Shown here: one piece after another, positions 1,437 to 63,354 of the stretch
How the letters are laid out: every line of letters begins with the position of its first letter
Position numbering within the stretch: the stretch's first letter is position 1
NCBI RefSeq assembly: GCF_006175995.1
Contig: NZ_VDMB01000011.1
Span: 697-64,696, forward strand
Origin: Desulfobotulus mexicanus
Lineage (GTDB): Bacteria > Desulfobacterota > Desulfobacteria > Desulfobacterales > ASO4-4
Reading direction: 5' to 3'
DNA length: 64,000 nt
Position numbers and translations under genes: made by a program
Notes under the pieces: model-generated
The model's input: the letters and a program-made list of their open reading frames with translations, nothing else
What the model was told of the DNA's origin: nothing
Database searches by the model: none

Positions 1437-4400
1437 TCACGTCAGGCTGACCTGAAAATTCTCTGCCGTATAGATGCAGAGACCGTCGCAGAATACGGCA
1501 GCCTGACAGCTCAGCCCTTCCTTTTTATCCTTAAAAATTTCCTTCACATTGATAACACAGTGCATGGCCGCACTGCCGGGCCGGATCTGCCCCCTGTAGG
1601 TCCAGCTGTGGCTCTGGGGGGTGACAAGAAAATCCTCCATGGGCCTTTTCAGTATCCGGGAGGCTGTCCAGCAAAGGGTGGTGAAAACTGCCTGAAGCCC
1701 GAGGGAGCCGGGGCATACGGGATCGTCCTTGAAATGGGCGTGGAAATACCAGTCCTGATCGGAAATATCCATGACGGCAAGGGTTTTACCAAGGCCTTCG
1801 CTTCCGCCCCTTTCGTCAAAGGAAAGGATGCGGTGGACCATGCTGAAGGCCTGTTCCGGATTGTTGTCCGGATGGGGCAGGGGGCTCTTTATCCCGAAAT
1901 CGTGGATGGCTTCCATTCCTTTCAGGTTTTCCGGAAGATCAAGGCCCAGAGGTGCGGTCATTCCCTTTTGATCTGACAGGGCTTCTTTTGTGAAAAAACC
2001 AAAGTGGGTTGTGCATTGTAAAACGGGCTTTTTCCCCTGAAAGCATGCAATCTCGAAAAAGAGAATTTGCAGATCGCCGTTTTTAACATAGCGGGTCAGG
2101 GTGGCTTGGGTTTCAATTTCTTCTCCATGGAAAACAGGGCCAAGGATTGTTGCATCTCCTCCGAGGTTTCTGAAGAAAAGATCCCTTTCGCTTTTCAGGG
2201 AACACCCCATCCAGGCTGCCATGAGACCGCAGGGCTGCAGGGCGGCCTCCAGAAGCAGGGCATAGGGGAGATGGCTTTTTTCATGCCCGAACTCAGGGTT
2301 TGCAGCTTTCGGATGCCAGATGGCGGTGATCTGGCTTTTTTCCGCAATGTGGCCCGGCGTGAGATGGGCATGGCTTACGGCGTCCACCGTGAGATAGGGA
2401 GGCCGTGGAAGTCGGGCGAGAAAGCGTCCCTGATCAAAGGGGGCGTAGGTCTTTCCTAGGGCTTCTTCGGCACGGCCATCGCAGAAGGCAAGGAGTCTTT
2501 TTTTGTCCCACAGGGGTTTTTCTTCTTTTGTTTCTGACCAGATGGCGGCAAGACCTTCCCTGTCAGTTCCCTCCAGCATGAGGCTCATGCCCTCAAAGCG
2601 GACAATGCATTTGCCATCGGCGTACATGAGGGCATCGGCCAGCACAAAGGGCTGGGGAGCAAAATCCATTTTGCGGATATGGATTTCATAGCGCACCTGT
2701 GATGTTTCCGGCGTTACCGGTCCCCGGCATTTGAGGCGGCTTTCGGCACCGGGCAGGGGCTCCCAGGAGCAGGCCCTGTCTTCAGGTATCCATCCTGCGG
2801 CCATGACGTACACCCTTAAGGTCTGCATGCAGCATTCATACATCAGGGTGCCGGGCATGACAGGATCATCGGAAAAGTGACAGGTGAGAAACCAGTCGTC
2901 CGGGTGGATATCCGCCTCGCCGATGGCAAGGCCGCAGCCATAATGACCGCCCTTGGGGTCCATTTCCCTCATGCGGTGAACCAGCGCCAGCATGCCGCCG
3001 GGCAGACGGATCTTTTCTCCTATGGTTTTTCCTTTGAAAAGGGGACCAAAGGCCTTTTCACCATCTCCTTTTCGCAGGGCTTCCATTTTTTCTTCGGAAA
3101 GGGTCGAGGCAGGAAAGCTGTGTATGGGAATGGCACCGGGGGCGATGCCCCTGTCCTTCATGATGGCCGGGAATCTCTCCTTTGGGATTACGCCTCCGGA
3201 ATCACGGATTTCTTCGGGTGTGAAGAATCCGGCACAGCCCTTTTCCATGGTGATGAGTTTTTCCTTTCCGATGAATCCCGTAAAGCGGAAGAAAAAGATG
3301 TGGGTTTCTCCCTGCTGCACAAAACGCTGGATTTCGATTTCATAGCGAACAGTTTCACCGGGCCTTGGCAGTCTTCTGTGGAAGGATGCCACCGCATCCA
3401 GAAGACGGTAGGCCCTTGTGCCTTTCACCTGAAGATCTATGCCCATGTAGGCGCAGAGGAAGAGATCGGCCTGACCGGATTCAATGGCAATGGAAAAGGG
3501 GGTACGGCCTCCGTCCAGATACCAGGCGTCTTCTTTTACCTCATGCTCCGTTACTATGGTTCCGGGTCCGGTGCGGCCCTTTACGGCATCAATGGAGAGG
3601 ATTTGGTCCACCAGCAGCAGGGGCGGGGCAGGAAGCCGTACCCGCACAGGATAGCTGTCCACCGCAGCAAAGTCTTTGCCCAGAACCTTTTCTGCCTTGC
3701 CGATGGCAAATTCAAGGCAGGCTTCATGGTCAAAGGCAGGGGTCGGTGGAGCCGCAGGTAAAGGGGGCAGAGGTACAGGTAAAGGGGGTGCAGGCCAGTC
3801 CATGCCGCTTTCCTTGTTTCCCAGCAGGGTATCCAGAGTATTTATGCGCTGGGCACAGCCATCAAGGTAGATTTGATGCAGGCGGCAGGTCTCCTTCTGT
3901 ATGGAGGAAAACTGGCTGAAGGCCATTTTATGCAAAGGGTTTTTTGCCATGCCACCTTTTTTGATCCAAGGCTCTGCCACATGCCAGATGGCTCTGGCTC
4001 TGGCAATGCTGATGACTTCCGCCTCGTCTTTTTTGGAAAGGCTGAAGGCCAGATGGGGGCGGTCTCCTAAGATACTGCGGATCATGCGGGTGCAGGAGTC
4101 CGATGGTCCCATCTCCACGAATATCCGCACTCCATCTTCCCATGCTTTGAGAACCAGTGATGGGAAATGAAAGCCCCGGAGATTTTGTTCCAGAATGGCA
4201 TTGCAGCAGCTCTTTGTATCCGGAGTAAAGGCTTTTTCGCTGGCACAGGAATAATAGCGGTAGGGTTGTGGATGAACTGGAAAGGTGTGCAGGGTTTCAT
4301 AGGCATTGCGTGCGGGTTTTAAAGCATCGCAGTGTACGGAAATGACCCCTTCAAGGAAGATGGGGCGAAGGCCCATATCCCCTGCCAGCTTTTCAATGTC

Positions 4401-59774: not shown

Positions 59775-60250
59775 TGAAGACCTCCTTCGGGCCTCAGGCC
59801 ACCTTCCCGGAGAAAGCGTATGGATGTTTCAGGAGAAATACGGAAGGTTTCCATGCGGTTGATATCTGCATAATTAAGCGTGCTGTTTTCTGCACGGAAG
59901 GCTGCCTCAACCTCAGGGCTGAAACCTTTGCCCGCCAGAGCCAGCTCATCGGAACTCACTCCGCCGGAGAGGGCATCGCCGGAAGCAAGCTCAATTTTCC
60001 GGTCCGTAAGGGCCGAGGTATGTACCCATCCCATGGTTTTTGATCCTGCAATTTTGACCCTGCGCCAGTCTCCCTGCTTCGAAAGGATTTCGACGGTCTG
60101 TCCGTAGGAAAGATTTGTGATGGTGCCTGCAAGAAAAGAGGGCATTTCCCGTAGCGGAGTACTGCCTGTCTGTACCTGCAGGGTGCCTGCCATGGCCGTT
60201 GTTCCGGCCAGCAGCAGACACAAAAAAAGAACAGTAATGTAAGTGCGCAT
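59771..60250 (-). CDS. Exported SH3-domain protein
   Basis: 159 residues. A signal peptide ends AMA before Gly. A bacterial SH3-like domain (about 25-85), with the LREMPS and GWVHTS segments, probably binds cell-wall or protein ligands. The tail (about 90-159) contains helices with no known motif. The start has GGAGGA before it, lying in the rluB end; its A overlaps the rluB stop by one base. Confidence 0.75.
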   Translation of the reverse strand: MRTYITVLFLCLLLAGTTAMAGTLQVQTGSTPLREMPSFLAGTITNLSYGQTVEILSKQGDWRRVKIAGSKTMGWVHTSALTDRKIELASGDALSGGVSSDELALAGKGFSPEVEAAFRAENSTLNYADINRMETFRISPETSIRFLREGGLRPEGGLQ

Positions 60251-61026
60251 TATTTCCTCCCTTTAAACTGTTTTTTGTATGCGGGGTGGTTTTCTTTTAA
60301 GGCTTTGAGTTTTGTCACCTCCTCAGGGGTGAGATGCCTCCATTCTCCGGATGGGAGCCTGCCAAGATTAAGGAAGGTCATGCGGATACGATGCAGCTTC
60401 ACAACTTCTGCGCTGCAGGCGGCAACCATTTTACGGATCTGACGATTACGGCCCTCCAGCAGAACAATCCGGAAGGTTTCCCGGTTCTGGCGGTATACCT
60501 TTGCGGGTCTGGTTTTTCTGCCTTCAATGACAATGCCGCCGGCCATCTGTGCAAGGGCATTATCATCAAGGGCAGGTTGCGTCTGCACCAGATACTCCTT
60601 TTCATGGTCAAAGGATGGATGGGACAGTCTGTGGTGCAGGGGCCCGTCATTGGTTAAAAGGAGAAGGCCGGTGGAGTCCTTATCCAGTCTGCCCACGGGG
60701 AAAATCCGGAAAGGAAGATTCACAAGGTCTGTTACCACCCTTTCTCCCCTGTGCTTGCAGGAAGTGACCACATCTGCGGGTTTGTGCAGCATCACATAGA
60801 TGAGAGGCTCATTAGCCTCGGCTTTTTTACCGTCCATTTCAACAAGGTCTCCGGGTTTTACCCGGACGCCCATTTCCAGCACGGTTTTTCCATTGATGCG
60901 CACCCGGCCCTTTTCTATGCGTCGTTCTGCTTCCCTGCGGGAGCACAGGCCCGCATCTGCCAGATACTTCTGCAGACGGACTCCTTCGGATACCGAAGGC
61001 AGGTGTTCAGGATCTGTAGTCTGCAT
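60250..61026 (-). CDS. rluB: RluB/RsuA-family pseudouridine synthase
   Basis: 258 residues from ATG 61026; a GTG at 61056 would lengthen it by 10 residues and overlap argJ further, and neither start has a clear binding site. The S4 RNA-binding domain opens with RLQKYLADAGLCSRREAE. The catalytic Asp is in GRLDKDSTGLLLLTNDG. It pseudouridylates 23S or 16S rRNA. The upstream neighbour is argJ. Confidence 0.9.
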   Translation of the reverse strand: MQTTDPEHLPSVSEGVRLQKYLADAGLCSRREAERRIEKGRVRINGKTVLEMGVRVKPGDLVEMDGKKAEANEPLIYVMLHKPADVVTSCKHRGERVVTDLVNLPFRIFPVGRLDKDSTGLLLLTNDGPLHHRLSHPSFDHEKEYLVQTQPALDDNALAQMAGGIVIEGRKTRPAKVYRQNRETFRIVLLEGRNRQIRKMVAACSAEVVKLHRIRMTFLNLGRLPSGEWRHLTPEEVTKLKALKENHPAYKKQFKGRK

Positions 61027-62188
61027 TGATGCGCACATAATCATAGGAGAAGTCACAGGTCAGCATGAAATCCTTTCCATCACCTATACCCAGATCAATG
61101 AGGATGGTGAAGGTTTTCTGCTTCATGACGGCAGAAGCACGGCTTTCCGCATCTTGCCCTAACCATACGCCGTCTTTAACCAGCAGGGCGTCATCAAAGG
61201 AAAGGGTGATGCGGTCCGGATCAAGATCCGCACCGGAGCGTCCCACAGCCATGGCCAGCCGTCCCCAGTTGGCATCTTCTCCGAAGATGGCGGTTTTTAC
61301 CAAAGGTGAGTTGGCCACCGTATCTGCGGCCTTCAGGGCATCTTCCCTGTTTTTTGCTCCTTCAACCACAATTTTTACAAGTTTTGTGGCTCCTTCTCCG
61401 TCCTGAACCACCTGGGTTGCAAGGTCCAGACAGATGTCTTTCAGTACGGCAGCAAAGATTTCTTCTTCCTCTCCTGAGGGCTGTATGCCGGAAGCACCGG
61501 AAGCCATAAGCAGTACGGTATCGTTGGTGCTGGTGTCTCCGTCCACGGAAATGCGGTTGAAGCTTTTATTTACGGCTTCTTTTAAAAGGGCAGACAGCCT
61601 TTCCGGGAGAATATCAGCATCCGTGACAAGGAAGGCCAGCATGGTGGCCATGTCCGGCTGGATCATACCGGAACCTTTGGCAACACCGCAGAGGGTGATT
61701 TCCTTTCCCCGGATCTTCAGGGTGCGGGAGGCGGTTTTTTTCACAAGATCCGTGGTCATGATGGCAGAGGCGAGATCATCAAGGCCTTGGGGGTGAAGGG
61801 ATGCGGCCAGTTCCGGTATTTTGGGGAGGATACGGTCCATGGGAAGCTGCTGGCCGATAACACCCGTGGAGGCCACCTGCACCAGTTCCGGTGCAATTTG
61901 CAGGGCGCTGGCTGCGGCCTCTGCCATGGCCTTTGCATTCTCCATCCCCTTTTCTCCGGTGGCGCAGTTGGCATTTCCGGAATTGACGATCAGGGCCTGA
62001 CAGCGGCCGGAGATTATGTTATCCCTGCTTAGCCTCACCGGTGCGGCAGTGACCCTGTTTTTGGTGAAAACGGCTGCTGCAGCTGCGGGATGATCGCAGA
62101 TCAGCATGGCCAGATCCGGCCTGTCTTTGTATTTAATTCCGGCACAAATGGATCCGGCGGAAAAACCTCTGCATTGCATGGCGCTCAT
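61007..62188 (-). CDS. argJ: Bifunctional ornithine acetyltransferase/N-acetylglutamate synthase
   Basis: 393 residues. The self-cleavage site is Ala181-Thr182 in DMATMLAF, with KGSGMIQP before it; Thr182 becomes the nucleophile of the beta chain. It recycles acetyl groups in arginine synthesis. Its end overlaps the start of rluB by about 20 bases. It heads the minus-strand run of five genes. Confidence 0.95.
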   Translation of the reverse strand: MSAMQCRGFSAGSICAGIKYKDRPDLAMLICDHPAAAAAVFTKNRVTAAPVRLSRDNIISGRCQALIVNSGNANCATGEKGMENAKAMAEAAASALQIAPELVQVASTGVIGQQLPMDRILPKIPELAASLHPQGLDDLASAIMTTDLVKKTASRTLKIRGKEITLCGVAKGSGMIQPDMATMLAFLVTDADILPERLSALLKEAVNKSFNRISVDGDTSTNDTVLLMASGASGIQPSGEEEEIFAAVLKDICLDLATQVVQDGEGATKLVKIVVEGAKNREDALKAADTVANSPLVKTAIFGEDANWGRLAMAVGRSGADLDPDRITLSFDDALLVKDGVWLGQDAESRASAVMKQKTFTILIDLGIGDGKDFMLTCDFSYDYVRINADYRS

Positions 62189-62326
62189 GGTGTATTCCTG
62201 AAAAGAAGTTTTTTTAAGAGTAAGGGTGTCTTTTCTCCCTTAAGACCTTTTTCCATTGTACTTTATCTTTTCATAGGATCAAGGCATATTATACAGATTT
62301 TTATTAACCTGGGTAAAGAGGGTGTC

Positions 62327-62512
62327 ATGGTGGAAACAAGTTTACTTTGTCCCGTATGCAGTAAGGGCAGAATTCTGGTAAGACGCAGCTGACGCAGGGT
62401 TACTTTCCGCTGCACGGTGTGCGGTCATGAATGCCCGGAATCCAGGGTACAGGAGCTTATGGATGAGGCCATGGAAGAGCGGCTTGCCTGGATTCCCGTA
62501 GATCGTCTTTGA
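62327..62512 (+). CDS. Small dual-CxxC protein with in-frame UGA (candidate selenoprotein)
   Basis: A 61-residue zinc-ribbon-like protein if the UGA at 62390-62392 is read as selenocysteine (residue 22). CxxC pairs are at Cys8/Cys11 and Cys29/Cys32, with another Cys at 36. The start at ATG 62327 has AAAGAGGG before it. Two facts support readthrough: the same frame after the UGA carries the second CxxC pair and reaches a normal stop that overlaps the truA start (TTGA), and a hairpin with stem GCAC/GTGC and loop GGT lies 23 bases after the UGA, within the usual bacterial SECIS range. NCBI annotations use the name dual CXXC motif small (seleno)protein for such products, as I recall. The alternative is a nonsense-interrupted pseudogene. 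Confidence 0.75.
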
Positions 62513-63354
62513 AAAGGATTGAGAAAAAGGTGCGTCGATTCAGAATTGTCATGGAATATGATGGCTCATGTTTCCATGGCTGGCAGTGTCAGCCAAAAAT
62601 TAAAACCGTTCAGGGAGAGCTGGAAAAGGCCCTTTCCACGATTGCCAACACACCTGTCACGGTGCATGGATCCGGCAGGACCGATGCCGGTGTTCATGCC
62701 CTTGCCCAGGTGGCCCACTTTGATATGAATACCCGCATGAACGGCCCTGCCATGAAAAAGGCCCTGAACTGTCTTCTGCCGGCAGGTCTTGTGATTCATC
62801 ATTGTATGGAGACAGGGCCCGCCTTTCATGCCCGTTTTGCTGCAAGGGCAAAAACCTATAGATACCGTATCCTTAACCGGCCTCTGCGTCCTGTTCTGGG
62901 CAGGGACTATCTCTGGCATGTATGGCAGCCCCTGGACAGAAAAGCCATGGATGATGCAGCAGCATATCTGGTGGGAACCCATGATTTTAAAAGTTTTGAG
63001 GCGGCAGGCAGTCCGAGAAGCCATACGGTGCGGACCCTGTACAGTGCATTTTTTGCCGATGAACCGGGAATCCCGGATGTTTTTGCCTTTGAGGTTACGG
63101 GGAATGGTTTTCTGCGATATATGGTAAGAAATCTTGCAGGAACCCTTATTCTGGTGGGGCGGGGTAAAATAAAGTCTGAGGCAATACCTCAGATACTTGA
63201 AGGGAAAAAACGGGAACTGGCAGGTGTTACGGCACCGCCACAGGGTCTTTTTCTGAAGGCGGTTCATTATGATTTATGCAATGATTTCAGGAAACCAGCC
63301 ATGGAAATCAAGCCGCCTCCGGGTATTGGTCTGGGAGGAGATGGGGCAGGCTGA
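62509..63354 (+). CDS. truA: tRNA pseudouridine synthase A
   Basis: 281 residues when started at TTG 62509, which overlaps the stop of the dual-CxxC gene. A GTG at 62530 with AAGGA upstream would give a start of typical length before EYDG, so the start is uncertain. The catalytic Asp is in GRTDAGVHA. It makes pseudouridine at positions 38-40 of tRNAs. It lies next to argJ, divergently. Confidence 0.93.
   Translation: MKRIEKKVRRFRIVMEYDGSCFHGWQCQPKIKTVQGELEKALSTIANTPVTVHGSGRTDAGVHALAQVAHFDMNTRMNGPAMKKALNCLLPAGLVIHHCMETGPAFHARFAARAKTYRYRILNRPLRPVLGRDYLWHVWQPLDRKAMDDAAAYLVGTHDFKSFEAAGSPRSHTVRTLYSAFFADEPGIPDVFAFEVTGNGFLRYMVRNLAGTLILVGRGKIKSEAIPQILEGKKRELAGVTAPPQGLFLKAVHYDLCNDFRKPAMEIKPPPGIGLGGDGAG

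Follow-up and report, generated by a model that had tools for sequence, protein, structure and literature searches.

A predicted NF041197 (OS_HP3) selenoprotein gene beside truA in Desulfobotulus mexicanus

In the available parts of three papers, a family of small proteins with two CxxC motifs was already catalogued among the bacterial selenoproteins. Table 1 of a 2026 review (PMC13188914) lists NF041197 as "Dual CXXC motif small protein (hypothetical protein OS_HP3)" with an RxU motif and credits OS_HP3 to its reference 60 (Zhang and Gladyshev 2007); the same review enters NF041197 a second time as "Hypothetical protein DW", with a GxU motif. Accession SMF39960.1 is named OS_HP3 in PMC9312934 but DW in PMC13188914, one family thus carrying two names. 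A deep-learning method (PMC12013277) missed a sole known selenoprotein gene in its test genomes, and this gene was OS_HP3 of Desulfosarcina widdelii. The available parts of PMC13188914, PMC12013277, and PMC9312934 contained no function for NF041197/OS_HP3, and a literature search joining truA, selenoprotein, and zinc ribbon returned nothing. Since the family is already catalogued, the locus described here was regarded as an ordinary member of it.

The gene and its family

The window, that is, the whole 64,000-nt stretch of D. mexicanus contig NZ_VDMB01000011.1 that was analysed, contained the following features of the gene.

62327-62512, plus strand: predicted selenoprotein gene of the NF041197 family, 61 codons and a stop, with Sec as codon 22
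62315-62322, plus strand: AAAGAGGG, a likely ribosome-binding site by its sequence, 4 nt upstream of the ATG
62348-62359, plus strand: first CxxC, codons 8-11 (C8, C11), from the translation
62390-62392, plus strand: in-frame UGA, codon 22, taken to be read as selenocysteine from the UGA/Cys column of the relatives
62411-62422, plus strand: second CxxC, codons 29-32 (C29, C32), from the translation and the 51-member alignment; it overlaps the SECIS
62409-62425, plus strand: putative SECIS hairpin, from fold and covariation, with the loop GGU at 62416-62418 and the core stem GCAC/GUGC within 62412-62422

Reading of the frame in the window sequence gave an ATG start at 62327 and a natural stop TGA at 62510-62512. 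The product of 62327-62512 (+) would be MVETSLLCPVCSKGRILVRRS-U-RRVTFRCTVCGHECPESRVQELMDEAMEERLAWIPVDRL, a dual-CxxC protein of 61 residues with a single in-frame UGA. An earlier note on this DNA had placed the UGA at codon 22 (62390-62392) and a second CxxC pair behind it, and both were found there. Plain ORF calling cut the gene in two, at 62090-62392 and 62417-62512.

With Cys written for Sec, the protein matched NF041197, "dual CXXC motif small (seleno)protein", at 58.8 bits (E 4.3e-16; curated cut-off, 40 bits), and the match spanned all 53 profile positions. In the six-frame search of the D. mexicanus genome the score was 49.8 bits, above the cut-off, and this was the single NF041197 match of the genome. 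The piece after the UGA alone scored 29.7 bits, below the cut-off of 40. The fixed layout of two CxxC motifs with Sec between them was present (C8, C11, U22, C29, and C32), and both Cys of the first CxxC were invariant in the 51-member alignment. The NF041197 search of 14 control genomes gave no matches, and the Pfam search of the read-through protein gave no family at its cut-off. On the evidence of sequence, a 61-residue selenoprotein of NF041197 (OS_HP3) is very probably encoded at 62327-62512.

The UGA codon in relatives and the selenocysteine machinery

The gene was searched for in a first set of 116 genomes, which consisted of D. mexicanus, two genomes of the same genus, and the rest from the same order. 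It was matched in 79 genomes, 74 of them above the cut-off. Among the 84 matched places, 80 had one internal TGA and 4 had no internal stop. In a phylum set, 112 of 395 genomes matched (88 above the cut-off); the 144 rows listed comprised 114 with one TGA, 1 with two TGA, and 29 with no stop; of these, 13 UGA rows and a single stop-free row had already been counted in the 116-genome set. Random read-through of stops would be expected to yield TAA and TAG as well, and neither was seen in the 84 places or the 144 rows.

Close examination covered 124 places, namely all 84 of the first set and 40 phylum rows; the stop-free phylum rows of G299, G420, G249, G362, G281, and G477 were left out. The earlier note had proposed to look for Cys or UGA at this position in homologues, and this expectation was borne out, with UGA found in 98 places and Cys at exactly the UGA column in 23. 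Three places had neither: G115 had UGG, G016 had Ile in a weak match (L100, 22.9 bits, below the cut-off), and L135 ended before the column. In each of the 98 UGA members, the UGA was located seven codons before the second CxxC. All three same-genus genomes searched kept the UGA. Over the 39 codons that follow the UGA, the window had 7 synonymous differences and 1 amino-acid difference from G001, and 13 synonymous and 12 amino-acid differences from the more distant G002.

Changes at this column were also seen within the family. In G115 (L019, match 1501-1653, minus strand), UGG (Trp) stood in place of the UGA and the SECIS core TTGCAGGTCATGCA was kept, which may reflect either a recent loss of Sec or a sequencing error. 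Two species of one genus differed jointly in the UGA/Cys state and in the SECIS core: G031 (L023) had UGA with the core TGCAGGGCATGC, while G090 (L011) had Cys and no core (TGCGGAGCCTGC). These two formed a natural Sec/Cys switch pair.

A whole-genome check for selA, selB, selC, and selD had likewise been proposed, and all four were found in the D. mexicanus genome (3.83 Mb, 98.14% complete). SelA (631.2 bits), SelB (379.4 bits), SelD (380.8 bits), and tRNA-Sec (75.4 bits) were all above their cut-offs. The selD gene (L045, G000:C12, match 1501-2418) had one in-frame TGA, a UGA at codon 11 of the match with a hairpin predicted downstream, and SelD of D. mexicanus is likely a selenoprotein itself.

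SelB was above the cut-off in 99 of the 116 genomes and in 73 of the 79 with the selenoprotein gene. The remaining six of the 79 were G009, G013, G033, G043, G076, and G101. SelA was above the cut-off in all six, and tRNA-Sec was above the gathering score in four, the exceptions being G009 and G076; G009 contained a partial SelB (219.9 bits). The missing SelB in these six genomes was taken to be due to assembly gaps.

The SECIS hairpin and the reading of the UGA

According to the available parts of PMC13188914 (Fig. 2 legend), a bacterial SECIS has a loop of 3-9 nt and a stem of 4-16 bp, with a G in the first two loop positions, a distance of 16-37 nt from the UGA, and an energy of -7.5 kcal/mol or lower. 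The window hairpin was within all of these limits, with a GGU loop of 3 nt, a stem of 7 bp, and a spacing of 23 nt; its energy was -8.4 kcal/mol for the 27-nt piece and -7.8 for the 17-nt hairpin. The proposal of the earlier note that the hairpin fits a bacterial SECIS thus agreed with these published limits, with two corrections to the geometry it had described. The distance of 23 nt from the UGA holds for the loop GGU (62416-62418), while the 4-bp arm begins at 19 nt. In the minimum-energy fold the U described as bulged (U62411) forms a U.G pair, which gives the 7-bp stem of 62409-62425.

The Rfam scan of 62200-62700 found no SECIS family and gave two weak snoRNA matches far below their gathering scores. 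The fold energy was ordinary for the composition, with a z of -0.86 for the 41-nt piece (32 of 200 shuffles as low) and of -1.38 for the 27-nt piece (14 of 200 as low). Because the energy against shuffles was uninformative, selection was tested through covariation at sites that the protein leaves free.

The eighth codon after the UGA ended in G in 96 of the 98 UGA members versus 9 of the 23 Cys members. Where this codon encoded Arg it was AGG in 53 of 63 cases, whereas elsewhere in these genes AGG accounted for 84 of 511 Arg codons (Fisher p 2.4e-27, a value inflated, like the covariation statistics below, by kinship among the sequences). The Arg-codon test was inapplicable in the 23 Cys members, as none of them has Arg at that codon. 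The second base of codon eight and the third base of the next codon formed a Watson-Crick pair in 63 of the 98 UGA members (permutation mean 38.2; 0 of 20000 permutations reached 63), while the same pair was formed in 4 of the 23 Cys members (permutation mean 5.8).

Covariation was then run with five measures on a gapless 98-row alignment of the UGA members. Changes on both sides of a pair were seen in 35 cells versus 13.2 in shuffles (0 of 500 as high), and 85.3% of the cells were paired versus at most 59.6% when the partner was slid. Two of the five measures carried little or no signal: further pair types were slightly raised (11 versus 8.8 in shuffles; 17 of 500), and the number of pairs changed on both sides was not raised (2 versus 2.0 in shuffles). 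All four core pairs formed in 64 of the 98 UGA members; 31 rows lacked the outer pair, 12 the third, and 29 the innermost. The window core GCAC/GUGC was one of five forms with C-G at the innermost pair, where G-C was the commonest pair (41 of 98). A cruder hairpin descriptor was matched in 69 of 80 places, versus 25.5 expected from synonymous shuffles in which codon usage was modelled roughly; it failed in 11, and the loop was elsewhere in 14 of the 69. Covariation of the hairpin stem is present among the 98 UGA members but absent from the 23 Cys members. Although kinship inflates the statistics, G031 and G090 of one genus changed the UGA/Cys state and the SECIS core jointly.

The UGA at 62390-62392 is very likely read as Sec, judging from the sequence comparisons. 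In the proposed mechanism, the ribosome would stand at the UGA 62390-62392 while SelB with Sec-tRNA binds the hairpin at 62409-62425; Sec would be inserted as residue 22, and translation would continue to the natural stop by truA. Two other explanations of the codon were weighed. The standard code reads UGA as stop, and the two separate frames from plain ORF calling agree with a true stop that would leave a pseudogene or a 21-residue peptide, with the downstream CxxC frame as a relic. This is highly improbable in view of the UGA at one column in 98 of the 124 places, the lack of UAA and UAG among the matches, the mostly synonymous changes from G001 behind the codon (7 to 1; 13 to 12 for G002), and the Sec machinery in the genome. 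The earlier note had held a chance nonsense mutation to be unlikely, and the NF041197 match (E 4.3e-16), the UGA-only stops, the Cys column, and the covariation of the hairpin were in line with it. Of the contrary outcomes that it had named beforehand, a genome devoid of Sec machinery and relatives stopping at codon 22 with no continuation, neither was found.

The codon could also be decoded with no selenium involved, an ordinary tRNA inserting Trp, for instance, and the UGG of G115 would suit this explanation. However, Cys, the usual counterpart of Sec, occupied 23 of the 26 non-UGA places, and the hairpin covaried in the UGA members and not in the Cys members, which makes decoding by an ordinary tRNA scarcely credible. 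Insertion of Sec therefore remained the preferred reading of the UGA.

Predicted fold, neighbouring genes, and known systems

The predicted model, in which Sec22 was modelled as Cys, had a mean pLDDT of 80.8 and a pTM of 0.59, and its last residues were poor. It was built on two sequences, and the five models ranged from 59.0 to 80.8 in mean pLDDT. Along the chain, the model showed a strand (2-7), the first CxxC, a hairpin (strands 15-21 and 24-29) and, after the second CxxC, a helix (38-53). Residue 22 lay in the turn of the hairpin, some seven residues from the knuckles by way of either strand. Zinc ribbons bind their metal at the knuckles, and four Cys are enough for one zinc. The two CxxC motifs of the modelled protein quite likely form a zinc ribbon around one zinc. 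With the metal at the knuckles, Sec22 is expected from the model to be exposed and far from the zinc, and the Arg neighbours should favour the selenolate at Sec22.

Searches against known families and structures gave weak matches. The family profile matched 2jrp (E 1.1e-4), in which Cys occupies the Sec column, as well as 5fj8, a Pol III subunit (E 0.0045); the region of the second CxxC matched 3a43 (E 4e-4), the hydrogenase nickel incorporation protein HypA. In Pfam at E up to 0.05, 24, 22, and 18 of the 51 members matched PF07191 (Zn_ribbon_6), PF14354, and PF02150, respectively; the window protein had no match to PF07191 at E up to 0.05. The PDB fold searches were also weak (best Foldseek E 0.029; Z at most 4.1), and many of the matches were zinc ribbons.

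For the role of Sec22, the odds are about even that it is redox or nucleophilic; the residue would then be a reactive selenol at the hairpin tip for thiol/selenol redox or nucleophilic chemistry, not a metal ligand. Sec22 could instead be a metal ligand or a metal-site switch, the protein being a metal sensor, carrier, or regulator and not a redox catalyst. The zinc-ribbon-like protein, the Cys of 2jrp at the Sec column, and the match to HypA point in this direction, but the four Cys are already enough for one zinc and residue 22 is at the hairpin turn of the predicted model, away from the knuckles, so a metal-binding Sec22 is considered unlikely.

A C-terminal Cys was present in 67 of the 84 members, while 7 of the 84, including the window protein, had Val there. 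Such a Cys was considered as a necessary resolving partner of Sec and dropped, since with Val in the window protein it cannot be obligatory. This Val occurred together with Cys36 (62432-62434 in the window) in all three same-genus genomes, D. mexicanus included. Among the 84 members, Cys36 was confined to these three genomes, and the other four Val members lacked it. Cys36 might substitute for the C-terminal Cys.

The genes next to the selenoprotein gene in the window were as follows.

62509-63354, plus strand: truA, tRNA pseudouridine 38-40 synthase (TIGR00071, 194.2 bits, cut-off 142.85), with a possible TTG start overlapping the selenoprotein stop
61007-62188, minus strand: argJ, the divergent upstream neighbour (PF01960, 506.1 bits)
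60250-61056: S4/pseudouridine synthase, a recurring neighbour

The TruA protein was 92% identical to that of Desulfobotulus alkaliphilus. The earlier note had described the gene as lying beside truA with its stop overlapping the truA start. The adjacency was present in the window and partly conserved elsewhere: in 31 of the 84 places truA came no more than 300 nt behind the gene, and by extrapolation from alignments the gap was about 50 nt or less in the majority of them. The overlap of TTG 62509 with TGA 62510-62512 is plausible but not certain, because GTG 62530 is another candidate start of truA. In 18 of the 84 places one further gene preceded truA and the locus contained an AEC-type permease, and in one place truA was elsewhere. 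No truA was seen in 34 of the 84 places, 21 of which had less than 1800 bases of room. The divergent argJ was upstream in 38 of the 84 places. Near the 40 phylum places, a blast search of at most about 1.5 kb per side found neither truA nor argJ.

The AEC-type permease (PF03547, 55.8 bits in one representative; cut-off 25.7) was beside the selenoprotein gene in 19 loci (e.g., L061, L062, L064, and L080), mostly starting less than 80 nt after it; in these loci truA, where in reach, mostly came after the permease. The neighbourhood looks like an old arrangement of genes in which a single insertion or loss has occurred; it offers little indication of function, and no common pathway was seen among the recurring neighbours argJ, S4/pseudouridine synthase, truA, and AEC-type permease. 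The close spacing to truA (at most 300 nt in 31 of 84) makes it possible that the UGA is a selenium gate, in which only Sec-decoding ribosomes would get as far as the stop-start junction and begin again at truA, or at the AEC-type permease gene in other genomes. Such a gate is very unlikely; if it existed, translation of the tRNA-modifying enzyme or of the transporter would depend on how much selenium is available.

The analysis confirmed, from raw sequence, one member of a selenoprotein family that is widespread and whose gene ordinary ORF calling splits. The natural Sec/Cys pairs of the family, including the two species of one genus, offer material on the gain from selenium in a zinc ribbon, and the SECIS laid over a CxxC coding motif is likewise good material on what selenium adds to it.

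Compared with NF041197/OS_HP3, the window protein had the same CxxC-Sec-CxxC layout and a C-terminal DRL, but it had an additional residue behind the first CxxC, Val for the usual Cys before the C-terminal DRL, and the extra Cys36. A GxU subgroup (CIFCGG...GRU) with UGA was seen in L093, L095, L096, L099, L134, and L136, which scored below the NF041197 cut-off except for L134, just over it; this subgroup is probably the "hypothetical protein DW" in the part of PMC13188914 that was available. It shared the dual CxxC and the UGA in between with the window gene; however, L093, L095, and L096 had GRU and scores below the cut-off, whereas the window gene had RSU and a score above it.

The likeness to the YfgJ-type double zinc ribbon was in the second CxxC stretch of 2jrp, where a Cys falls on the Sec column at the corresponding spacing, although this likeness was weak (E 1.1e-4). 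We take 2jrp to be a protein of this type (PF07191; 2jne). The window hairpin shared GGU in the loop with the SECIS of E. coli fdhF. E. coli K-12 fdhF has TGCAGGTC after the UGA, and an identical core was present in 38 of the 98 UGA members, while the window core was TGCACGGT. By counting, the core was 4 nt farther from the UGA in the NF041197 family than in fdhF.
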